Positions 16,583-29,515 of a stretch of DNA of 33,503 bases are shown here, piece after piece; position 1 is the first letter of the stretch, and each line of letters opens with the position of its first letter. Source of the DNA: Candidatus Nomurabacteria bacterium RIFCSPLOWO2_01_FULL_33_17 (lineage in GTDB: Bacteria; Patescibacteriota; Minisyncoccia; Phycocordibacterales; UBA9973). The stretch covers positions 1-33,503 of the forward strand of contig MFUO01000031.1 in the NCBI GenBank assembly GCA_001786995.1. Reading direction: 5' to 3'. A model generated the notes under the pieces. That model saw only the letters and a list, made by a program, of their open reading frames with translations. It did no database searches and was not told the origin of the DNA. The translations under genes and the position numbers were made by a program.

Positions 16583-19500
16583 CTAGTTATCCACAAAAAT
16601 CTTATTAGCTATTTTACAATATTCACATTCTGTATTAGAAGTTCCATATGGTTTAAAATGACAGGGTCTTGATACCCAACTACCTATTATTAATTCATTC
16701 TCATAGTCTTTTATATCACGAATTAGTAAATCTATAACTTCACTGTCTATATGAGTTTTGTATAAATAATTTTTCTCTTTTGGATTTTCTTCAAGAAAAA
16801 GTAATCTTGACTCAGCCACAATTTTTCCACCTTCTACTCCTTGTACAAGATAAGAATACATTGCAAGTTGTCGCATATATGAGGACAATCTATTTTCTTC
16901 ATCTTTTTTTTCTATCATACCAACAGTTTTACTACTTCCTGTTTTAAAGTCGGTAATTATAATGTCACCATTGGATAATCTTTCTGTTAAATCAATTTTT
17001 CCATAGATATTTAAATTTGGAAAATTTTTATCCCTAAAAGAGATATTCCTTTCAGATTCATGATCTTTAGCTAATTTTTCATAATAATTTATCAGCCAAT
17101 TTTTAATTGAATCATATGCATCTTTTGTTAACTTTTTTAATTCTATAATATCATCTATCCCCTCTTTTTTAAGTTCAAAAACTATTTTAACTTTAATAGC
17201 TTCATCACTTGGTTTTGAATTTTCTTTTAAAATAAACTCAATAACACTATGCACAGCCGAGCCCAAAACCAGACTTTTTGATTTAACCTCTGGCAATTTT
17301 AAAAAATTTCTAAAATACCAACGCCATGAACATATAAAAAAATTATTAAGCATCGAGACTGTTATGTTTGTCTCTGTGTATTTTTGTTTTACAAAATCCA
17401 TAACACTCTTTAAAGTATCATTTTCAATGTCTAAACTTGATTTTAATGCAAAATGTTTTATATCCTTTTTAATTATTTCATCTTCTGTTTGTATATTATT
17501 TTTTATAATAAAATGATCTTTATTTAAATCTTCAATTATATGAGCCAATGTTAAATCTTTACCTTCAAAATCTGATTTAGAATAAGAAATAGATAAAATA
17601 TCTTTTGCTCTTGTAATAGCAACATATAGTTCTCTTTTTGCACTCTCAATATCTTTTTTGTCTAAAAGATCTTTAACCTTCTCGGGTAATGTAAAAGCAT
17701 TTCTTTTACTACTCATTAAAATCTCTTCATTCATATGAGCTATAAATACATACTTATACTCAAGACCTTTTGATTTATGTAATGTCATTACATGAACACC
17801 ATTATTTAAACCAATAGATGCAATATTTATATGTGTATTATATTCTCTTAAGCGAGAAAAATACTGTAAAAAATCATTAAGTTTTGCTTTAGTATGCCCG
17901 TCTGCAGAAGCTATGCGACTAGCATTGCGGGTGGGGTTTTCTTCATATGAAATTGCAAGATGAATCAAACTTCGTACTATTTCTACATTTTTCAAAAGCT
18001 CTTCATGATTTTGACTTTTCTCTATTAAAAGTTCATTACCAACAATGCTAACAATCTTAGATATTCTTTCCCCATTTGTACTATTTATCCAGTTATTAAG
18101 CTGACCCCTCCAAATCGATACTGGATTCGTATCAGAAAATAAAGTCTTATCAGTATTTTCTGTAAAATCCCAAAAGTCTTTACGATTTAGAGTATAACCA
18201 TTTTGGCTAGAAAAACTTTTAATAAATTTATGCGCAAGAAATGTATCAATACCGCTCGTCTGATCTAAGATAGATTCACAAAGTAATACATTATCATTTG
18301 GATTATTTATTATTTGTAACACTCTTATTAGACTATCAACTTCATTTATATCAAAAATTGAAACATTTTTCTCAGAAACTATGGGTATACCCATATCCGA
18401 AAGTATATTACAAGCCTGCCTTACATTCTTATTCTTTGGAAGCAATATTGCAAATTGATTTAGATTTTCTCCCTTTTCAACCATTTCTTTAATCATTAAT
18501 CCGATATGTAAAATCTCATCGCGCGGAAAATTATATTGATATAAGTTTATCTTTACATTTTCTTTTTTATTACTTTTTAATTTTTCTTTTGTAATTGAAC
18601 TTATTAATAATTCATCCGCTAAACCTAAGATATTTTCAGTTGAGCGATAATTTTCAACCAAAATTATTAATTTTGCTTTACCAAAATAATGCGAAAATTC
18701 TTCAAAATAACTAATATTGGCCCCAGAAAATCCATATATAAGCTGACGGTCATCCCCAACTACAAATATATTTGGCATTTCAACATCTCCCCACACGGCT
18801 TTCAAAAAATTGTTTTGAACAAATGACGAATCTTGATGTTCATCTATAAGTATATATTGATATTCTTCTTTTATATCCGAGCGCGCATCGTCGGAATCTT
18901 CGACAATTTTTACAGCATATTCAAGCACATCGTCATAATCCATCATTCCTCTTTCTTTTTTCAAATTTTCATAAACTTCATAAAATTTTACCACTTCTAT
19001 TGTTCGTTCTAATGACTCTATTTTTTTAATAATATCTTTTTTAAATTCTCCTTTTGACTCTCCACGCGAAGAAATACTTTCTGGGTCTTTTTGCAAACTT
19101 TCAATATCTATCTTTATTAAATCCAAAAATTTTTCTGGCTCCAACCTTTCTTTTTTTAAAAGTGAAATCAAACCTTTTAAATCATTAAAATATTGAGACG
19201 GATTTGTGCGAGTCTTTATGTATTCCCAATCATTTGTATGCAATATCTCATCAATTAAAAATACAGATTCACTATCATCCATCAATTTTGGCGGATATGA
19301 AAAATCTAATACTTCATAATATTTACCCACTATACTAGAAGCAAAAGAATGGAATGTATTTATCGTTACACCGCGAGATAGAGATCCAATATATTTCTCT
19401 AATCGATCTTTCATTGCACCCACTCCAGAACGAGTAAAAGTAAGACAAAGTATACTATTTGCTCCAGTATCTGTATTTTGAAGTATATTTGCAATTCTTA

Positions 19501-19627
19501 ATGCTAAAATCTGAGTCTTGCCTGTACCAGGCCCCGCAACAACCATTACTGGCCCATCTATGGTGTCTACAGCCTCTTTTTGAGCAATATTTAACTTATT
19601 ATAAGCTTGTTTAAAATCTTCATCCAT
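16583..19627 (-). CDS. UvrD/PcrA-type superfamily 1 helicase with C-terminal PD-(D/E)XK nuclease and likely Fe-S cysteines
   Basis: VVAGPGTGKTQILALRI, ILIDEHQDSS, VMTLHKSKGLEYKYVFI, ELYVAITRAKD; nuclease DLTERLSNGDIIITDFKTGSSK; Cys in FFICSWRW and CHFKPYGTSNTECEYC. Confidence 0.92.
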   Translation of the reverse strand: MDEDFKQAYNKLNIAQKEAVDTIDGPVMVVAGPGTGKTQILALRIANILQNTDTGANSILCLTFTRSGVGAMKDRLEKYIGSLSRGVTINTFHSFASSIVGKYYEVLDFSYPPKLMDDSESVFLIDEILHTNDWEYIKTRTNPSQYFNDLKGLISLLKKERLEPEKFLDLIKIDIESLQKDPESISSRGESKGEFKKDIIKKIESLERTIEVVKFYEVYENLKKERGMMDYDDVLEYAVKIVEDSDDARSDIKEEYQYILIDEHQDSSFVQNNFLKAVWGDVEMPNIFVVGDDRQLIYGFSGANISYFEEFSHYFGKAKLIILVENYRSTENILGLADELLISSITKEKLKSNKKENVKINLYQYNFPRDEILHIGLMIKEMVEKGENLNQFAILLPKNKNVRQACNILSDMGIPIVSEKNVSIFDINEVDSLIRVLQIINNPNDNVLLCESILDQTSGIDTFLAHKFIKSFSSQNGYTLNRKDFWDFTENTDKTLFSDTNPVSIWRGQLNNWINSTNGERISKIVSIVGNELLIEKSQNHEELLKNVEIVRSLIHLAISYEENPTRNASRIASADGHTKAKLNDFLQYFSRLREYNTHINIASIGLNNGVHVMTLHKSKGLEYKYVFIAHMNEEILMSSKRNAFTLPEKVKDLLDKKDIESAKRELYVAITRAKDILSISYSKSDFEGKDLTLAHIIEDLNKDHFIIKNNIQTEDEIIKKDIKHFALKSSLDIENDTLKSVMDFVKQKYTETNITVSMLNNFFICSWRWYFRNFLKLPEVKSKSLVLGSAVHSVIEFILKENSKPSDEAIKVKIVFELKKEGIDDIIELKKLTKDAYDSIKNWLINYYEKLAKDHESERNISFRDKNFPNLNIYGKIDLTERLSNGDIIITDFKTGSSKTVGMIEKKDEENRLSSYMRQLAMYSYLVQGVEGGKIVAESRLLFLEENPKEKNYLYKTHIDSEVIDLLIRDIKDYENELIIGSWVSRPCHFKPYGTSNTECEYCKIANKIFVDN

Positions 19628-19634
19628 TTCTCTA

Positions 19635-20258
19635 TTATAGCAGAAATAAATGTATTAAAATAAACACTCCAGAAAATGTAATAATAACCCCAGAAATATG
19701 ATTTATAAGCTTGATGTGAAATTTATTAAAACTAGACCGGATTTTTGAGACAAAAAAAGCAAGTATTGTCCACATAGTTAAAGCACTTAATAAAAGTCCA
19801 AAAACAAAAGATACTGGAAATTCAGAAAAACCATTAAACACTGATAACGACCCCAAAATAGCTGTAAATGTAATTATTTGAAATGGATTAAGCATAGTAA
19901 CAATAAATGCTGAAAAAAATTGACCAAAATAATTTTCTACTTCTAAATCATTTCTTTTATGTTTTGTATATAATTTTTCTGAGAAAAAAGTTGCTATACC
20001 TAAGATAATTAATGAAGTCCCACCTATAATATGTATTGGTATGGTATAGTTTATAAAAAATTCGGATGAAGAATTAAGACTAAAGATTATAATAATACTA
20101 TAAATAAAATCAGATGTGATTACCCCAACTCCAGTAATAAAACCAGACATAAATCCATCATTAATTGTTCTTTTAATACTTAAAAAACCAACAGGACCAG
20201 TTGGTAAAGATATTAACATTCCCATAAACAGACCTTTTAAAAATGAAATCAAAAACAT
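19635..20258 (-). CDS. LysE family translocator/exporter
   Basis: LISLPTGPVGFLSIKRTINDGFMSGFITGVGVITSDFIYS; multiple TM segments; MLNPFQIITFTAILG. Confidence 0.85.
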   Translation of the reverse strand: MFLISFLKGLFMGMLISLPTGPVGFLSIKRTINDGFMSGFITGVGVITSDFIYSIIIIFSLNSSSEFFINYTIPIHIIGGTSLIILGIATFFSEKLYTKHKRNDLEVENYFGQFFSAFIVTMLNPFQIITFTAILGSLSVFNGFSEFPVSFVFGLLLSALTMWTILAFFVSKIRSSFNKFHIKLINHISGVIITFSGVFILIHLFLL

Positions 20259-20353
20259 AAACAGAGTATAACATAGTAAAAAAATATTTCACCTATTAAT
20301 ATCTTTCCTATATAATTTTTATGTGTTAAAAATAAAGAAATAATAAATAAATC

Positions 20354-20382
20354 TTGTTATATAAAGAAATATATACTATACT
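20354..20382 (+). promoter_or_regulatory. Predicted sigma70-type promoter
   Basis: TTGTTA - 17 nt - TATACT. Confidence 0.6.
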
Positions 20383-20388
20383 AACTTA

Positions 20389-20480
20389 CGAAGTGCTCAT
20401 TCGAAGCACTGTTATTTTGTTTTTAATTAAATAACAGTTTTCAAAAGGCAAATCCCGTCTCGCAAGAGACGGGATTTGCT
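20389..20480 (+). ncRNA. Candidate structured non-coding RNA or leader with a strong 14-bp terminal hairpin
   Basis: AGTGCT/AGCACT, ACTGTTATTT/AAATAACAGT (overlapping), and GCAAATCCCGTCTC-GCAA-GAGACGGGATTTGC. Confidence 0.45.
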
Positions 20481-20535
20481 GTATACGCTTAAAAATGTTA
20501 GAAATAAAGGAGTTTATAATAATATTTATAAATTT

Positions 20536-20620
20536 GGAGGTGTCGGATAGCGGTTTATTCCACTACCTTGGAAAGGTAGCATATCGAAAGGTATCGAGAG
20601 TTCGAATCTCTCCACCTCCG
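20536..20620 (+). tRNA. tRNA-Ser(GGA)
   Basis: Acceptor GGAGGTG/CACCTCC, discriminator G, anticodon arm CTACC-TTGGAAA-GGTAG, long variable arm ATATC-GAAA-GGTAT, T-arm GAGAG-TTCGAAT-CTCTC; CCA not encoded. Confidence 0.96.
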
Positions 20621-20774
20621 CGAGGAACTTCGTGACGAGCAGAGGTGAGAAAGACATCTACATGTCTTTCATGGGAGATTCGAAAAGTTTTTCGATGTGT
20701 ATGAGAAATTTTATTTCGAATACACCGAAAAGGTGTACTGCTCCTGTAAGGAGAGAATCCCCCCACCTCCTCCA
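20621..20774 (+). other. Highly structured tRNA-adjacent tail ending in a second tRNA 3'-end-like sequence
   Basis: Closing stem GAGCAG (20637-20642)/CTGCTC (20738-20743); hairpins at 649-670, 680-695, 697-725, 721-737, 741-753 (+20000); 20755-20770 GAATCCCCCCACCTCC matches 20604-20619 at 14/16, followed by TCCA. Confidence 0.6.
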
Positions 20775-20880
20775 AAATTCGTTTACAAATAAAACTAGAA
20801 TCCTAGTTTTCAACGGAAAATAAGTACAAAACTCGTAAATTTTAAATAATATAAAGAAAAGTATTATTCCATAAAAATAT

Positions 20881-21756
20881 TTACGATTTTTTATTAGTAC
20901 TTAAAAATGAAATTTCATTTTTAAGTACTTTAACCAAATAAGGATCTGTAAGCTCCTCAATTGAAATGATATCTAAAGAACCTGTTACTTTTTTGGAATC
21001 ATCTAGTTTTTTATATAACTCCCAACATAATTTGGGAAGTTCTCCTTCTTTATACTCTATTAATTTGTTTTTTATATAACTCGCAATTTTTTTTAAATCT
21101 CTGAATATTTGTGTTGGTTGTCCATGAGTAACAATAACTAATTCCGTATTTTTCCCTAATTTATTAACTTTTTCACTAGTTTTAATTACCAGAGAGTACA
21201 ATCTTAATAAAACATCTCTATATGATTCACCATATTTTGTAAAAAATTGATTCAAATCAGGATACTTGTATTGACCATTTGCAAGTAATACAGGATCACC
21301 ATATCTATAATCATAATTATCATTTTTTTCTCCATAATCTGAAGCGTGGGTTTCCTTAAGAAAAATTTTATCTGCAATATACAAACCTTCATATTGTTCG
21401 CCTTTAACATAATCTGTTGGTAAAACAAATTTACCCTGATCAATTTCTCTCAGGTCATTTTCTTGAACTGATAAACATCTTAAAGTCGAATCTTTTTTTA
21501 GAAGTGCATCAATTACCATTTGTGTACTTTGTTTTGCTCTAATTCTAGGAGATGTGACAAATAAAACAGCTTTTTTATTGTACTCTTTTAGTTCTTTGTA
21601 TAACTGACCTGCAATCTCCTCAGCCCTATCTTCCTGTCCGTGAATTAAAACACCATCCCTTCCATATTTCTCAAGATCGTCAACTTCATCTAAATGTCTT
21701 ATGACACTAACCTTTTTCTCTTTTCCTAAATTATTAAAATTTTCAATATGTTCCAT
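20881..21756 (-). CDS. Histidine phosphatase family protein
   Basis: VSVIRHLDEVDD...AVLFVTSPRIRAKQSTQMVIDAL...ELVIVTHGQPTQIFRDL; likely ATG at 21756 rather than GTG at 21762. Confidence 0.8.
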   Translation of the reverse strand: MEHIENFNNLGKEKKVSVIRHLDEVDDLEKYGRDGVLIHGQEDRAEEIAGQLYKELKEYNKKAVLFVTSPRIRAKQSTQMVIDALLKKDSTLRCLSVQENDLREIDQGKFVLPTDYVKGEQYEGLYIADKIFLKETHASDYGEKNDNYDYRYGDPVLLANGQYKYPDLNQFFTKYGESYRDVLLRLYSLVIKTSEKVNKLGKNTELVIVTHGQPTQIFRDLKKIASYIKNKLIEYKEGELPKLCWELYKKLDDSKKVTGSLDIISIEELTDPYLVKVLKNEISFLSTNKKS

Positions 21757-21889
21757 AACCACGATATTATAAAGAAAAAATCATGTTTTTGCAATTAAAA
21801 TTAATGGAAAATATAATTTAATTCCAGTTTGGCATTGTGTAAAACATTAGTGATATATTATAAATATATGTTATAATATAATCATAAAA

Positions 21890-22831
21890 ATGAATAATCA
21901 ATTTAAAAAAAATTCTATAATCACCAGAAGCTACAATGATATTGTATTTGAGGCTGACAAGGTTATTAAGGGAGTTACACGGGATAGATATTTAAAGGAA
22001 ATAAAATGGTTTTTAGAAGCAGAAAAAATAATACCAAACAATACTCCATTAATTTTTACTTCAATTAAAAAACCAATTATCCGTAAAAACAATAAAAACC
22101 TTATATATTACGAAATGCAAGCAATTGATGGTAATAATTTATATCAATGGTCAATGGATAATAGAGATGAAGCAGAAAAAATTTTCGATCAGGTAATATC
22201 TTTAATTATGTTAATGCACCAAGAATCTAAAATGGCAAATGATGATGATATTATAATGATGTATTACTCAAAACCTAAAAAGGCAATTGAAAATTTTATT
22301 AAGGAAAAAATGCTTGACCCAGATGCATTAAGAATAAATGGGTTTCTCGTTCAGAATCCTGTTGTAACACTTGACAAAGTCTTTAAAGAATTTCGTGAGA
22401 GATTATTTAACACAAAATATTCTTTTATTCACGGAGACTTAACCATGAGCAACATTGTGATAGATCAAAACAGAAAAGTATATCTAATTGATCCGCGAGG
22501 CGCTTTTGGAAAGACAAAGATGTATGGTGATGTGCGGTATGATGTTGCAAAGTTGTTTTATAGTATAGTTGGAAATTTTGATTCTTTAAATAGTGGTCAA
22601 TTTAAGTATGAATATAATCTTGAAACAAATGATCATATTTTCTCAATTGTTGATAATGGATTTAGTTCTTATTCTGACAAGATACTTAGTTTATTTAAAG
22701 AAGATTTAGAGATTATTAAATTTATCCATACTACTATTTGGTTGAGTTTAATACCACATACATCAAATGACAAAAAACAACAGCTTTGCACTTTTTGTAA
22801 CGGGGTTTTATTATTAGATTTATTTAAATAA
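21890..22831 (+). CDS. Aminoglycoside phosphotransferase/choline kinase-like small-molecule kinase
   Basis: FIHGDLTMSNIVID...VYLIDPRGAFGKTKMYGDVRYDVAKLFYSIVGNFD. Confidence 0.82.
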   Translation: MNNQFKKNSIITRSYNDIVFEADKVIKGVTRDRYLKEIKWFLEAEKIIPNNTPLIFTSIKKPIIRKNNKNLIYYEMQAIDGNNLYQWSMDNRDEAEKIFDQVISLIMLMHQESKMANDDDIIMMYYSKPKKAIENFIKEKMLDPDALRINGFLVQNPVVTLDKVFKEFRERLFNTKYSFIHGDLTMSNIVIDQNRKVYLIDPRGAFGKTKMYGDVRYDVAKLFYSIVGNFDSLNSGQFKYEYNLETNDHIFSIVDNGFSSYSDKILSLFKEDLEIIKFIHTTIWLSLIPHTSNDKKQQLCTFCNGVLLLDLFK

Positions 22832-22833
22832 TT

Positions 22834-23544
22834 ATGCAAATACACACAAAAAAAACGAAATTATTTCTAGACTCAGTAATATATGATGAGATAAAGAAAT
22901 ACTCATGGATTATTTCCGGGGTAACTACCACTCCAACTTTTTTTAATCGCGATAAGGTTAATTTTGATGAATTTGCTACACAACTTAGATCTGATTATCC
23001 TGATTTAGAGTTACACGTCGAAGCCTTAGGTAATAATTCAATGGAGACAGAAAAAGAATTAAAGACCATTTTAAACAAACCTTGGTTTAGCATAAACAAA
23101 GTAGTTATAAAAATACCCGTTAGCTTTGATAATCTAAAAATTGTTTCAAAATACTCAAAAAATGGTGTTAAATTCAACACGCATTTAGTCTTTACTCCTT
23201 GTCAGGCATATTTGGCTGTACTTGCTGGATCTACTTATGTCTGTCCCCTTATTGGAAGATATGCAGACAATGTGTCTAAATTCTTTGGTAGAAATCTTCA
23301 TGGTGGTGAGGATGATATTACCAATAAAGTACTAGTTGATATACTTAATGTCGTTGATAACGGGCAGGACAAACGGGTTGGTGTTATGGCTTCATCAATA
23401 AGGACTGTTGGTGACTTTTGTAATGCAGTTATGGCTGGCTCTGATATAGTAACAGTCCCAACAAATGTCCTTGAGGACTCTATTAAAAATGAATACACAG
23501 ATCAAGGAATTTTAACTTTATTAGAAAGTGTAAATGTAAAATAG
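22834..23544 (+). CDS. Transaldolase / fructose-6-phosphate aldolase-like protein
   Basis: KVVIKIPVSFDNLKIV...VKFNTHLVFTPCQAYLAVLAGSTYVCPLIGRYAD...VGVMASSIRTVGDFCNAVMAGSDIVTVP. Confidence 0.85.
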   Translation: MQIHTKKTKLFLDSVIYDEIKKYSWIISGVTTTPTFFNRDKVNFDEFATQLRSDYPDLELHVEALGNNSMETEKELKTILNKPWFSINKVVIKIPVSFDNLKIVSKYSKNGVKFNTHLVFTPCQAYLAVLAGSTYVCPLIGRYADNVSKFFGRNLHGGEDDITNKVLVDILNVVDNGQDKRVGVMASSIRTVGDFCNAVMAGSDIVTVPTNVLEDSIKNEYTDQGILTLLESVNVK

Positions 23545-23545
23545 T

Positions 23546-24391
23546 ATGGACAAAATAGTTCTAAGTAATAATATGTCTATCATTGAGGAAGTAATAAAAA
23601 TATTGTCCAATGAGACTCGAGTGTTAAATCCGAAAGAGATTTTGTGGTTAGTGTTTGGAAGTTATGTAATAAATACAAATACAACAGAAAGTGATATAGA
23701 CATCATCGGAATACATAAAAGTTTTATAAATAAAAAGAGATATGTTTTTAATCATAAAAATATACCAATTCATTTTAATGCGATTAATATGGATGATCTT
23801 AAAGATGATGGAGAAAGTAGGTTGTATGGGGGGTATTTTACAGGTAAGATTATAAATCCTCATATTTTTTTATATGGTAATAGTAAGGAAATTAATGATT
23901 CTATTTATAATGCAGGGAAATTTATCGGCCCACTGGCTGGTTATATAAGTAAAATTTCTACAGACACTTCATTTTCACAATCACAAATAACAGCTTTTGT
24001 GTTTATTGCTTATCTTAGTACTGATCCAAGTTTTGATTCATATTTTTTAAATTATTTTATCTCACAAGAATTTGAAAAAATATGGGAATGTTTGCAAAAA
24101 AATACAGTCAAGATGCTTATTATCTCTGGAAGTATTCAGCGTGTTGATAATAAATATATTTTTACAGATAGTTTTTTTAGTTACAAGGATTTTCACTTTG
24201 AAAGAATGAAGATTTCAGCAAGACACTGGAGTTACGGTGTTATTTGTCATGACAATGATATAAAATTTCCAGATACAATGTTCACTAAGGCAAATATTAA
24301 ATTAAAAATTATTGATCCAGAGGGTAAAAAATATGCAAACATGGTGTATTTTCTTAAAGAACAGTCAGGCTTAAGTGAAATTTTTATTTAA
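23546..24391 (+). CDS. Pol-beta superfamily nucleotidyltransferase-like protein
   Basis: LWLVFGSYVINTNTTESDIDIIGIH. Confidence 0.75.
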   Translation: MDKIVLSNNMSIIEEVIKILSNETRVLNPKEILWLVFGSYVINTNTTESDIDIIGIHKSFINKKRYVFNHKNIPIHFNAINMDDLKDDGESRLYGGYFTGKIINPHIFLYGNSKEINDSIYNAGKFIGPLAGYISKISTDTSFSQSQITAFVFIAYLSTDPSFDSYFLNYFISQEFEKIWECLQKNTVKMLIISGSIQRVDNKYIFTDSFFSYKDFHFERMKISARHWSYGVICHDNDIKFPDTMFTKANIKLKIIDPEGKKYANMVYFLKEQSGLSEIFI

Positions 24392-24395
24392 TACA

Positions 24396-24869
24396 ATGCA
24401 AATAAATAAACTATATAGACAAGGAGTAAATGCTATTATTGTTGATAAAGATAGCAATTTTCTCTTAGTACAAAAGAATACATGGCAGGATAATATCTTA
24501 ACTATTCCTGGCGGCGGAAAAGAGAATGATGAAACACCAGAAGAGAATTTATTTAGAGAGTTAGCGGAAGAAATCGGGGCAGAAAAAAAAGATTTAATTA
24601 TTTTAGGTATAAGTTCTCACAACATAGAATATGATTATTCCATAGAGTTATCATCAAAAATCAACGGAGGGGAATACAGGGGTCAGTCATACAAACAATT
24701 TGTTGTAAGATTTATCGGAGATAAAGATAAATTAATATTTACTCCTAAAGAGTTTAGAAATCACAAGTGGGTAAAAGCTCAAGAATTGCATAAATATCTT
24801 GTTCTACCTAATCAATATAAAACTCACAAACAGGCAATCAATGAAATATTGCCGGGCATAATACAATGA
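24396..24869 (+). CDS. NUDIX hydrolase
   Basis: TIPGGGKENDETPEENLFRELAEEIGA Nudix box; start MQINKLYRQGVNAIIV just after the upstream stop. Confidence 0.92.
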   Translation: MQINKLYRQGVNAIIVDKDSNFLLVQKNTWQDNILTIPGGGKENDETPEENLFRELAEEIGAEKKDLIILGISSHNIEYDYSIELSSKINGGEYRGQSYKQFVVRFIGDKDKLIFTPKEFRNHKWVKAQELHKYLVLPNQYKTHKQAINEILPGIIQ

Positions 24870-25759
24870 AATTAATTACAATTGGAATTCCAACAAAAGA
24901 AGGGATACATTACAAAGAACTTCTTTGTTCGTTGTGTAAATCAATACTATTTTTGTCTGATGAAAGATGGAAATTTGAAATTATTTTTTGCATCAATGGT
25001 CTTCGTACAGACGAAACTCAGTATAAAATTAAATTAATTATTAACGAATTTCCAGAACTCAATATAAGAATCATCGTGCAAGAACCAAATTGTTTAGGAA
25101 AACCACTTGCAATGAAAAGAATTTCTGATGAATCTAGTGGGGAATTCCTTCTGTTTCTTGATGATGATATAGTAATTTGTCATAACACTATTAAAGATTC
25201 CATAAATGTTTTTGAAATTCATCCTAATATAAAATTAGTCAGTGCTACCCCTAAAATTGTATACCCAACCCCAATTTCATTCTGTAGGAGAATAATTTTT
25301 GATATATTAAATGTTCAACACATTTTCGATTTATTTATTTTTCCAGATCCATTTATTATTGGGCGTTTTATGATGTTAAGAAAAATAGATATGCCAATTA
25401 TTCCTGCAGATATTATAAAAGATGATATGTATTTACAGATATTATTTTATCCCAATGTATTTAAAATTAAATCACACATTAAATACCAAGGTGTAATTTA
25501 TTTAAAGGATTATTATACAAGGCTATTTCGTTTAATCGAAGGTGAAAAACAAGATTTAAAAAATATTAATAAAGATAAACTAAGACAATATTTTGATGAC
25601 CCACTCATGAAAAGAAGACTAGATTTTAATAAAATTATTCATTTGAGGTTGTATTTTTTATTTTGTTTTATTTGTTATAGATTGATTAAGTTATTTGCTT
25701 TTTTACTACAACCACTGTTTTTCAACAAGAAACAAATAGGTTGGAAGCGTACAAATTAA
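24866..25759 (+). CDS. Family 2-like glycosyltransferase
   Basis: ITIGIPTKEGIHYKELLCSL...CLGKPLAMKRISDESSGEFLLFLDDDIVI; ATGA overlap with upstream gene. Confidence 0.82.
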   Translation: MKLITIGIPTKEGIHYKELLCSLCKSILFLSDERWKFEIIFCINGLRTDETQYKIKLIINEFPELNIRIIVQEPNCLGKPLAMKRISDESSGEFLLFLDDDIVICHNTIKDSINVFEIHPNIKLVSATPKIVYPTPISFCRRIIFDILNVQHIFDLFIFPDPFIIGRFMMLRKIDMPIIPADIIKDDMYLQILFYPNVFKIKSHIKYQGVIYLKDYYTRLFRLIEGEKQDLKNINKDKLRQYFDDPLMKRRLDFNKIIHLRLYFLFCFICYRLIKLFAFLLQPLFFNKKQIGWKRTN

Positions 25760-25779
25760 TATATCCAAAATCTATGAAT

Positions 25780-26604
25780 CTAAAAACGAGGATTGATTTT
25801 TTTGAATTCTTTTAACCACATTCTTATAGATTCCAACTCAATTTTTCTGTCAGGATTTTTTTCAATAGTCTGGATTTCTTTTTTTGTAATATTCCAAGGT
25901 TTTAAATAACTAGCATAATGAATTATGTAAATGGGCTTTTTTCTTGATTTTAAAGAATAGCCAAAAAGTTTATTATATTCATCTAAATAGTAATGAATCA
26001 TATTATATTTATGATCTAAGTGTAGCTTTTTATTTTGTTTCCATTTTGAGTAATATGAATTCAAAAAATCTTGATCACTGCCAGATTTTGGTGTAAACAG
26101 TGTTCCACCAGATTCTAGTGTTTCTATTTTACCAATTTTGTTAATCATATCTTTGAATGTTTTTGATGAAGGTTTTATAACCATCAAGCCACTATTAAAA
26201 TGTGTCCATGATTTTTTTCTTTGCAACATACCTCCCGCATTTGTAGCAGACATGTGATCATATTTAAAGAGATCATCTATGTTCCGAAGTATTAACATAT
26301 CTGCATCAAAATATACGATTTTAGAATATTTTGTTTGATTAAATATATTTAATTTTGAGTATGTTTTGAACCATCTATGTTTTGTGCTAACATCTGTTGG
26401 GTTATCTATATCTTTAAATAGTACTTCATATGAAATACGAAGTTTTTTTAAAATAAGTTTAGTTCTCTTTGAAATATTTGGTGTAAGTAATACTAAAAAT
26501 GGATATTTACTTTTTGTTTTTTTATATGAAAAAAATAAAACGAGTAAGCCTTTGAGATAGTTATCTGTTGAGAGTACTGAAATATATGAATAATTATTTT
26601 GCAT
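25780..26604 (-). CDS. Family 8-like (glycogenin-type) glycosyltransferase
   Basis: SYISVLSTDNYLKGLLVLFFSYK...YSKIVYFDADMLILRNIDDLFKYD...HFNSGLMVIKPS. Confidence 0.85.
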   Translation of the reverse strand: MQNNYSYISVLSTDNYLKGLLVLFFSYKKTKSKYPFLVLLTPNISKRTKLILKKLRISYEVLFKDIDNPTDVSTKHRWFKTYSKLNIFNQTKYSKIVYFDADMLILRNIDDLFKYDHMSATNAGGMLQRKKSWTHFNSGLMVIKPSSKTFKDMINKIGKIETLESGGTLFTPKSGSDQDFLNSYYSKWKQNKKLHLDHKYNMIHYYLDEYNKLFGYSLKSRKKPIYIIHYASYLKPWNITKKEIQTIEKNPDRKIELESIRMWLKEFKKINPRF

Positions 26605-26663
26605 AGTTATATTATATAATTTTTTAATGAAATTAGCTGAATTTAATTTTGTTCTTTATATTA

Positions 26664-27557
26664 TTATTGTTTTAAAAACTTACTGATTCTTTTTCGAAAG
26701 AAAATTACCAAAAGTATAATTACAAGTAAAAGTAAAATAAAAAAATAATTATTTGTTTTTACAACATCTTGTACAACATTTATAGGTCTTAGGACTTCTA
26801 TTCTGGTATTACCAACTTTATCAATTGCTTTGATATATATAGATTGGTTAATATCTTGATTTTTTAATAAATATGGACTTTCAGTATTTTTATATGTACC
26901 CAATTCCCCTTCGCGTACTTCATAATGATCTATCCCCGAAATTTTATCTTGTGTTGTAAAAATCAAAACATTTTGACCATTATAAATATCGGGATTTTTT
27001 GTAATTTTTGGATTAAAACTTTCCGGCAATTCTTTGTCATCTATTACATCATCAAAAGAGAAAAAGTTAAAAATTTCATTATTAATTTTAGTATTTATTA
27101 ATATAGATATTGGAATAGTTGTATTAACAACAGCACTACCTAAACCATCATTTTTAAGAACTCTGACACCACTAGCATTTATTTCTTTTAAACCTGCAGT
27201 TTTAGAGAAAAGTGTTATTTTAAATAAAAAATTATTATTACTATTAAAACCCCCAGGGGTTAATCCTGCAAAATGAATAGTATTTTGATTTGTTACACTT
27301 GGATTTTCAATCCAAAAATTTATAACTGAACCTCCAGAATTAATAGATTTAACATTTAAACCATTCAACAATATTATGTCCCCTTCTATCGCATTTATGT
27401 TTTCATTTTGTGTGTCAAGTCTTACTTCAACTACAAATTCTTCGTTTCGTGAAAATTGATTATTATTAGCATAGAAAAACAAATTACTAGCATTTGCAAA
27501 ATATGGCATTATGCTAAAAAATGTAAAGAAAATGGTTATTTTTAAAAATTTTTTCAT
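26664..27557 (-). CDS. Cohesin-domain-like membrane-anchored surface protein
   Basis: Signal peptide; FSRNEEFVVEVRLDTQNENINAIEGDIILLNGLNVKSINSGGSVINFW...HFAGLTPGGFNSNNNFLFKITLFSKTAGLKEINASGVRVLKNDG; C-terminal TM and RKRISKFLKQ. Confidence 0.78.
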   Translation of the reverse strand: MKKFLKITIFFTFFSIMPYFANASNLFFYANNNQFSRNEEFVVEVRLDTQNENINAIEGDIILLNGLNVKSINSGGSVINFWIENPSVTNQNTIHFAGLTPGGFNSNNNFLFKITLFSKTAGLKEINASGVRVLKNDGLGSAVVNTTIPISILINTKINNEIFNFFSFDDVIDDKELPESFNPKITKNPDIYNGQNVLIFTTQDKISGIDHYEVREGELGTYKNTESPYLLKNQDINQSIYIKAIDKVGNTRIEVLRPINVVQDVVKTNNYFFILLLLVIILLVIFFRKRISKFLKQ

Positions 27558-27569
27558 AAAAAATATAAA

Positions 27570-28325
27570 TTAACCTGTCCAGTAATAACCCATTATACTA
27601 AAATCAACTAAGTCTACTTTATTGTCATTATTTAATTCTACATATGCTGGCGGTGCATATTTTTTATACCAAATACGCATAATAGAAAAATCCAAAAAGT
27701 TAACCCGCCTGTCGTGATTTATGTCAGGTCTTAAATATGAAAAACCATACGAATCTAATATAAAAGAATCTTTATTTATAACTATATTATCGATAGTGGT
27801 ATTGGAACTATTTGTTAAATGCACAGGAAAACTTAATAAACTTGACCGCATTTTTTGCTTGTTCTCACCATATACTGAAAAAGTATATGGTCCTGTTGAA
27901 ATACCATTGATTTGTGTATTAAAATTCCCATTCTCGTCTGCGACAATTGTAGATATTAATTGCCCATCTTTTAAGATATAAACTTTACCAAGTGGTATAG
28001 TATTTCCTGAAAAAATTACACCAGTTGTTGTAGGCAGTATTACCCCACCACCGGATGATGTTGGGGCTGGTGTTGAAGATGCTATACAACTACTAGTATT
28101 AAATGCACATAAAGATGTACAAGTAAGAGTTCCAGATGCAAAACCCTGCGACACACATGATGCCCCACCAAGATCGGCCCCGTCACATGATTCGCCAACA
28201 CCAATAGTATCATCGCCACAACCCAAAACAGTTGCAGAAATATCTACATTTTCAGTTACAGCTAAAACAAAATTAGTAGTTCCAAAAATTAATATTATTA
28301 AGATGATTATAATTTTTATTCTCAT
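27570..28325 (-). CDS. Secreted dockerin type I protein with Cys-rich N-terminal repeat
   Basis: RPDINHDRRVNFLDFSIMRIWY...VELNNDNKVDLVDFSIMGYYWTG duplicated Ca-binding loops; CGDDTIGVGESCDGADLGGASC. Confidence 0.88.
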   Translation of the reverse strand: MRIKIIIILIILIFGTTNFVLAVTENVDISATVLGCGDDTIGVGESCDGADLGGASCVSQGFASGTLTCTSLCAFNTSSCIASSTPAPTSSGGGVILPTTTGVIFSGNTIPLGKVYILKDGQLISTIVADENGNFNTQINGISTGPYTFSVYGENKQKMRSSLLSFPVHLTNSSNTTIDNIVINKDSFILDSYGFSYLRPDINHDRRVNFLDFSIMRIWYKKYAPPAYVELNNDNKVDLVDFSIMGYYWTG

Positions 28326-28354: not shown

Positions 28355-29515
28355 TTATATTCTTCGTCTTACAGGCTTTTTAACAGCTTCTGTATTATTT
28401 TGATTTTGTGTTTCAGTTTGAATTTGAGAATTGTTTTGAGAGTTTAAACTATTTTGCATTTCATTTGTATTTTGTTCGACAGCTATTTTACCATAATCAC
28501 CATGCATTATTTTAGAAATCAACCAGTGTTTATAGCGACGGAAAATAAATCGCACAATTATAAAAACTAAAAATAAATCAATAATTATAAATATCAACAA
28601 ATGCCATGGTAATACCCAAAATACGAAAGAGCTAAGAGCTGTCTCTTTTTGTGTACCATAAGTCAGTAACATTTTTGCTTTATAGCGACCAAATGCAAAA
28701 TTACGCCACTCGTATTTGGCTTTAGTTAGAAAATTTTTGTTATCAAGATCTGTCGGACCAGCGGTACCACCGCGACCTTGCCAATTTGCTTCAATTTTAC
28801 GAATACTGTTTGGCAAAATGTTACCCTCTACTGGGTTCGCAGAGATTTTTTCAGCAGTCATACCAAAAATGTTTTTCATTGCAATATCCCCTTCAGGCTT
28901 TATTCTGTCACCACCCGAGTTTTGGAAGCGATAATAAAATGATACAGGCAGGTGGGTAAAAAATGTTTGCTTGTCTTTGGTTGCAAATTCTAATATCCCC
29001 CCATTTTCATCAACATCACCATTTACACGCAATAGTACCAGCATGCCCACCTTGGCACCAATAGCCAAACTACCCGAATCAGTAGTAGGTGGTTGTGTGC
29101 CCCAAAAGACTACAGCAAAATGACCACCCGGGTCAGCATTTGCAGGAATTTTAATTTTAACTTGTACAATTTTAGACGAATTGGCGGGTAAATCAATAGA
29201 TTCTACTGTTTCCATCCATGTGCCCAAACCCTCGGTAGCATTTACAAATGATGGGCTACCTGTTTCGCCTGAAGCTTCAAAATTGGCGTACGATGCATAA
29301 TATTTTTCATCAGTATCGCGTTCGTTTATCAAAGTCATTTCTTGACTTAAAACTTGCCCTGGGTCACCGGCTATTTCCATACGAATTGGGGTCAAAGTCA
29401 AAGCCTGTGCATTGTAAAATGGCAAAAACAAAAAAATAAAAGCAGAAATAAAGATGGAAACAAAAAATACCCCACCTAGTTCAAATTTTTTTATGTTAAG
29501 TATTTTACTTGTCAT
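28355..29515 (-). CDS. DUF916/WxIP-like extracellular protein with C-terminal TM
   Basis: ALTLTPIRMEIAGDPGQVLSQEMTLINERDTDEKYYASYANFEASGE...LPANSSKIVQVKIKIPANADPGGHFAVVFWG; late TM WHLLIFIIIDLFLVFIIVRFIF. Confidence 0.7.
   Translation of the reverse strand: MTSKILNIKKFELGGVFFVSIFISAFIFLFLPFYNAQALTLTPIRMEIAGDPGQVLSQEMTLINERDTDEKYYASYANFEASGETGSPSFVNATEGLGTWMETVESIDLPANSSKIVQVKIKIPANADPGGHFAVVFWGTQPPTTDSGSLAIGAKVGMLVLLRVNGDVDENGGILEFATKDKQTFFTHLPVSFYYRFQNSGGDRIKPEGDIAMKNIFGMTAEKISANPVEGNILPNSIRKIEANWQGRGGTAGPTDLDNKNFLTKAKYEWRNFAFGRYKAKMLLTYGTQKETALSSFVFWVLPWHLLIFIIIDLFLVFIIVRFIFRRYKHWLISKIMHGDYGKIAVEQNTNEMQNSLNSQNNSQIQTETQNQNNTEAVKKPVRRRI

Follow-up and report, generated by a model that had tools for sequence, protein, structure and literature searches.

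The 33,503-nucleotide contig MFUO01000031.1 of Candidatus Nomurabacteria bacterium RIFCSPLOWO2_01_FULL_33_17 (analysed at full length and hereafter called the window; contig C31 of a 558-kb assembly that is 82% complete) carries seven adjacent genes that resemble parts of a sugar-activation pathway (Table 1). Five of them, encoding an APH-fold kinase, a TAL/FSA-family aldolase, a nucleotidyltransferase of the Pol-beta fold (NTase), a NUDIX hydrolase and a family 2 glycosyltransferase (GT2), form a plus-strand operon, with a divergent histidine phosphatase gene on one side and a convergent family 8 glycosyltransferase (GT8) gene on the other. We think it somewhat probable that the operon was acquired and that its products generate an activated sugar and transfer it to a glycan; the likeliest function would be a nucleoside diphosphate (NDP)-sugar pathway in which the Pol-beta NTase replaces the usual sugar-1-phosphate nucleotidyltransferase.

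An earlier sequence-only reading had named all seven genes and their classes, and the open reading frames and Pfam matches bear it out in each case. Its description of a tight operon also agrees with the gene spacing: from kinase to GT2 the intervals are +2, +1, -17 (+4 with the alternative NUDIX start) and -4, the last being a 4-nt ATGA overlap between the NUDIX and GT2 genes. The phosphatase gene lies 127 bp from the operon start, and a tRNA-Ser gene (20536-20621, plus strand) precedes the block, as that reading had placed it, about 260 bp ahead of the phosphatase stop. Motif inspection found complete catalytic motifs in the phosphatase (RH, SPRxRAxQ and THG), the kinase, the NTase and the NUDIX hydrolase (a complete Nudix box); the phosphatase matched alpha-ribazole phosphatase only weakly.

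Table 1 Features of the locus, with E-values of the Pfam matches for the seven gene classes.
Feature	Coordinates	Strand	Basis
Histidine phosphatase (branch 1), candidate sugar-phosphate phosphatase	20881..21762	-	His_Phos_1 1e-5
APH-fold small-molecule kinase, candidate anomeric (C1) sugar kinase	21890..22831	+	APH 8e-8
TAL/FSA-family aldolase, active site altered	22834..23544	+	TAL_FSA 6e-22
Pol-beta fold nucleotidyltransferase (NTase), candidate for nucleotidylating the kinase product	23546..24391	+	NTP_transf_2 1.7e-5
NUDIX hydrolase, GTG start (ATG at 24396 equally possible)	24375..24869	+	NUDIX 6e-14
GT2 glycosyltransferase	24866..25759	+	Glycos_transf_2 1.6e-6
GT8 glycosyltransferase, convergent, 20 bp from GT2 stop	25780..26604	-	Glyco_transf_8 5e-16
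Low-GC block without counterpart in nearest sister contig (LysE-type transporter, tRNA-Ser, phosphatase, operon, GT8)	19635..26604		Comparison with G794 (L183)

The kinase, the NTase and their relatives

The kinase carries the motifs HGDxxxSN...IDPRGxFG, common to kinase domains linked to sugar nucleotidyltransferases, and matches phrog_21938 (4e-30) and phrog_4098 (2e-28). Its closest described families are phage proteins with an N-terminal sugar nucleotidyltransferase and the kinase as C-terminal half; other close relatives are "capsular biosynthesis" proteins of E. coli, Citrobacter, Aeromonas and Planktothrix plasmids. Among 112 loci, grouped at 60% identity into 33 clusters, a nucleotidyltransferase of the GT-A fold lay within 5 kb of the kinase in 28 clusters, a small HAD or KdsC-like phosphatase occurred in 22, a SIS isomerase in 15, a TAL/FSA aldolase in four and a KbaZ/FBA-like aldolase in three, counts that are descriptive and no random sample because many loci were fetched by the kinase motif and some seeded search models. 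Loci outside the seed set (L039-L043, L062, L063) had the GT-A nucleotidyltransferase as well. One of the four TAL/FSA clusters, that of L109, was not taken as support for an aldolase-kinase pairing, its aldolase being an ordinary cyanophage-type transaldolase 3.7 kb away.

As these neighbourhoods present it, the pattern of the family is a maker of sugar phosphate, a phosphatase, the kinase and a nucleotidyltransferase, as in the MupP-AmgK-MurU system. AmgK is itself an APH-fold enzyme. In Pseudomonas this system recycles MurNAc anabolically, through a phosphatase, an anomeric kinase and a nucleotidyltransferase that yields an NDP-sugar (PMC5371407). The order of chemistry would be the same in the window, whereas MurU is GlmU-like (GT-A) and MupP a HAD phosphatase, in place of which the window has a Pol-beta NTase and a phosphatase of the histidine type; its aldolase and NUDIX hydrolase come in addition. 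The sequence-only reading had pointed instead to the heptose (GmhA/HldE/GmhB) and lincosamide octose (LmbR/P/K/O) routes; the general logic of that parallel survives (skeleton building, kinase, phosphatase and nucleotidyl transfer), but the kinase and nucleotidyltransferase classes differ, the window has no isomerase, and MupP-AmgK-MurU is the closest known logic. LmbR is transaldolase-like. Phage nucleotidyltransferase-APH fusions (RB69 ORF53_52c, Thanatos TH1_060 and phrog_4098, accompanied by a SIS isomerase and a small HAD) share the kinase family, and their proposed product is an activated pentose that would serve in DNA modification or in glycans (see PMC6024577, PMC12838424); they differ in that the kinase is fused to a GT-A domain, the sugar phosphate comes from the isomerase, and both Pol-beta NTase and NUDIX hydrolase are missing.

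Fusions of this kind also occur in six Patescibacteria glycan clusters (L089, L090, L091, L093, L094 and L095), alongside a KdsC-like phosphatase and one of two further enzymes, a SIS isomerase (accompanied in L091 by a ribulose-phosphate epimerase) or a KbaZ/FBA-like aldolase; some add a shikimate-dehydrogenase-like protein.

Conservation of the kinase with the NTase and NUDIX hydrolase was found in a genome of another class (G161), where the three genes stand in the window order, are 50, 56 and 58% identical, respectively, and are flanked by genes for a GT4 and a DegT-type aminotransferase. Judged from these sequences, an order that recurs across classes at 50-58% identity is more than chance. 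The window and G161 hold the only two full copies among several hundred sampled Patescibacteria genomes, and no further one was found in the class of G161 (48 genomes) or in that of the window (387 genomes). The sequence-only reading had expected its genes to be conserved together elsewhere and had proposed the aldolase, kinase and NTase as the set to follow; the kinase and NTase do recur, with the NUDIX hydrolase, and the aldolase does not accompany them. None of the window's other island genes had a match at the G161 locus. The GT4 protein beside the G161 triplet (L036:9151-10725) has about 130 extra C-terminal residues that by eye appear NUDIX-like but degenerate.

What the two copies lack is the GT-A enzyme: a search at E 0.01 gave no such nucleotidyltransferase, neither in the window nor in a 20-kb region around the G161 copy. 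The Pol-beta NTase directly follows the kinase (G161) or the kinase and aldolase (window), and among the kinase loci it occurs in these two only; the other loci free of a GT-A enzyme are cut off or doubtful (L069, L074, L092, L096, L150 and L172). The window further has a histidine phosphatase in place of the HAD enzyme of its relatives, and an aldolase where many of them have a SIS isomerase. In our reading, the pathway is the one found in the relatives, but several of its components have been swapped. The histidine phosphatase adjoins the operon in the window and not in G161, and its membership, like that of the GT8 gene in the same inserted block, is suggested by adjacency.

The NTase family has five known members, each of which keeps a GS...DxD motif. 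Besides the window and G161, they come from three loci in which a distant NTase (25-30% identity) adjoins a different APH-type kinase and a gene resembling that of tryptophanyl-tRNA synthetase (TrpRS); an APH-type kinase gene thus lies immediately or one gene upstream of the NTase in all five cases. No relatives were found in the plasmid and phage collections. A structural model (pLDDT 76, from a three-sequence alignment) matched ANT(4') adenylyltransferases and Tam41, which is among its best fold matches, at similar E-values, with TM-scores of about 0.33 and of 0.44, respectively, low values that support the Pol-beta fold and not a function. Tam41 is a Pol-beta-fold cytidylyltransferase that acts on a phosphomonoester and reportedly keeps one of three acidic residues (PMC11646218). 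If our proposal holds, the NTase would likewise place a nucleoside monophosphate (NMP) on a phosphomonoester, though it has no significant sequence relation to Tam41 and keeps its DxD pair.

The three distant loci (L037:8791-12782, L044:3561-10301 and L045:141-3730) share a module that combines TrpRS with an APH-type kinase, a Pol-beta NTase and another, TrpRS-like protein (the L045 contig begins at the kinase). A HAD gene is present in two of the three, and an aminotransferase and an oxidoreductase in L044; the module is not obviously a sugar pathway.

The aldolase

The aldolase retains the Schiff-base lysine and the Asp, Glu, Ser and Arg of the TAL/FSA active site. Its relatives proved unsuitable as a marker of the operon, since a first contig scan gave no close ones and the TAL/FSA genes of other fetched Patescibacteria loci (1.5 kb flanks) had no other operon genes nearby. 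Outside the window, an aldolase and a kinase of these families occur together in the cyanophage S-SKS1 and 11 marine contigs. In all 11 contigs, fetched with the S-SKS1-type aldolase, the kinase, a HAD phosphatase and the aldolase adjoin, and a nucleotidyltransferase is present in 10, the remaining contig beginning inside the kinase gene. L168 and L169 carry a rearranged cassette with another gene order and 38% aldolase identity. By sequence comparison, aldolase and kinase have been joined at least twice.

The S-SKS1-type cassette shares with the window the kinase family and the classes of TAL/FSA aldolase, phosphatase, nucleotidyltransferase and glycosyltransferase; it differs in its conventional GT-A enzyme, its HAD phosphatase and its DHBP synthase, and its aldolase is only distantly related. 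At the position equivalent to F178/Y131 that aldolase has an Ile, which arose independently of the change in the window enzyme.

As a first guess, loosely held, the product of the window aldolase may be an aldopentose phosphate. E. coli FsaA converts glycolaldehyde and glyceraldehyde-3-phosphate to arabinose-5-phosphate (PMC9947464), which is what a KdsD-like isomerase would yield in the clusters with a SIS isomerase.

The marine viral cassette (L064:3562-8047, which is S-SKS1, L065-L075, L168:7388-12086 and L169) combines DHBP synthase (RibB), a sugar nucleotidyltransferase, the APH kinase, the HAD phosphatase and the divergent TAL/FSA aldolase, followed by a glycosyltransferase or methyltransferase-like gene. 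This content suggests that it makes an unknown sugar, perhaps from a four-carbon ketone phosphate.

A proposed pathway and its alternatives

In the pathway that we propose, the aldolase would build a phosphorylated sugar by aldol addition (an aldopentose-5-phosphate is one candidate), the histidine phosphatase would take off that phosphate, and the kinase would phosphorylate the free sugar, most likely at C1, a step that the context of its family supports. The NTase would then move NMP from a nucleoside triphosphate to the sugar-1-phosphate, a role held by the GT-A enzyme in relatives and supported by the mutual replacement of the two; GT2, GT8 or both, to judge from adjacency, would transfer the sugar, and the NUDIX hydrolase may, more speculatively, clear excess nucleotide sugar or a nucleotide by-product. 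The gene content, the operon structure, the motifs, the conserved G161 triplet, the family context, the replacement pattern and the probable insertion are observations; we infer all of these reactions, which sugar is made, in what order the steps run and what the phosphatase, NUDIX hydrolase and glycosyltransferases do. The earlier idea of an activated-sugar pathway built from unusual enzyme classes is sustained by the kinase family context and the G161 triplet, and less so in its other parts: the aldolase falls outside the G161 set, the triplet is very rare, and phosphatase and GT8 are linked to it by position. The more specific claim, that the Pol-beta NTase is a true sugar-1-phosphate nucleotidylyltransferase replacing the GT-A enzyme and, with an aldolase of changed specificity, gives an undescribed nucleotide sugar, we hold tentatively, as possible but rather doubtful.

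Several observations weigh against the proposed pathway. The aldolase carries N28->T, T107->H and F129->L (the last at the F178/Y131 position), all at residues invariant in 24 relatives, and these changes could reflect altered specificity or a loss of activity. Neither aldolase nor phosphatase was found close to the G161 triplet, and the distant relation between window and phage aldolases implies that their pairing with the kinase arose independently. We found no published activity for any kinase of the family; an activated pentose is the presumed product in RB69 and Thanatos, but their kinase homologs were not resolved in vitro and no activity is on record for the protein that contains the kinase (PMC6024577, PMC12838424). 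Aminoglycoside adenylyltransferases match the NTase model no less well than Tam41 does, and a profile comparison with Tam41 (hhalign) gave P 0.23, no better than column shuffles. Homology to Tam41, suggested by the fold and a motif, was accordingly rejected, and we use the likeness of fold only, because hhalign was unsupportive and PF09139 matched nothing, controls included.

The resistance-like folds might also mean that kinase and NTase together phosphorylate and adenylylate a small molecule (or its hydroxyls), in the style of aminoglycoside or lincosamide inactivation, with the aldolase and glycosyltransferases as bystanders on the island. The kinase model does resemble APH(2'') and APH(3'), as the NTase model does ANT(4'), and the other clade of the NTase family adjoins a TrpRS-like gene, not glycan genes. 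We nevertheless consider this quite unlikely: by sequence the kinase belongs to a nucleotidyltransferase-linked family and no resistance family, and glycosyltransferase genes neighbour the pair in both the window and G161. Toxin or resistance families, which the sequence-only reading had raised as a competing home for both enzymes, score far below their curated cut-offs. Against the NCBIfam APH resistance models the kinase reached about 10-23 bits (cut-offs 205-525), and no ANT model matched; the MntA antitoxin model gave 16 bits against a cut-off of 60, and PADLOC returned weak matches for kinase and NTase and a generic one for the NUDIX hydrolase, with no convincing defence system, so that a defence or toxin-antitoxin identity was rejected.

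A nucleotide sugar could alternatively be made with a GT-A enzyme acting in trans, while the NTase has some other role, for instance passing a phospho-group on to a glycan or controlling an enzyme. The assembly has one PF00483 nucleotidyltransferase, on contig C16, and Pol-beta-fold enzymes have many roles. Together with a single TAL/FSA gene, this one nucleotidyltransferase bears in part on the sequence-only reading's view of the genome as biosynthesis-poor. The adjacency of kinase and NTase in five of five NTase loci, conserved with the NUDIX hydrolase in G161, fits consecutive steps, and we consider this option unlikely. That mobile metabolic genes assembled by chance on an island, serving no single pathway, would agree with the low GC content, the insertion relative to a sister genome (described below) and the missing aldolase in G161; it seems very unlikely given the tight spacing and overlaps, the intact motifs, the kinase-NTase-NUDIX order kept across classes and the parallel aldolase-kinase-phosphatase sets of phages.

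To our knowledge, sugar-1-phosphate activation is carried out by enzymes of the GT-A fold (or of a few others). If the NDP-sugar pathway is real, a Pol-beta-fold enzyme would add a fold to this chemistry, and NTases of this sort, which often carry resistance or antitoxin labels, would be annotated differently. The kinase family has a wide distribution over phage, capsule and Patescibacteria glycan loci, and the small standalone version in the window offers a simple test case for what it phosphorylates.

A probable insertion and its surroundings

GC content is 0.278 over 16583-27557 and 0.341 in the remaining window. The closest sister contig that we found, L183 of G794, encodes a protein 83% identical to the flanking protein 28355-29515. 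On this contig come homologs of 28355-29515, 27570-28325 and 26664-27557, then a stretch of about 670 bp and a homolog (41% identical) of the UvrD-like gene 16583-19627, where the contig ends. Since the homologs of 26664-27557 and 16583-19627 lie so close together there, the content between 19.6 and 26.6 kb is missing from the sister, and the low-GC block was probably inserted relative to it, that is, acquired. No aldolase of the window type was found among 40 near relatives. Integration at the tRNA-Ser gene was considered and rejected, as no att-like direct repeat of its 3' end was found. The UvrD-like helicase itself (16583-19627, 1014 aa) shares the low-GC stretch of the operon, and its homolog borders the empty site on the sister contig.

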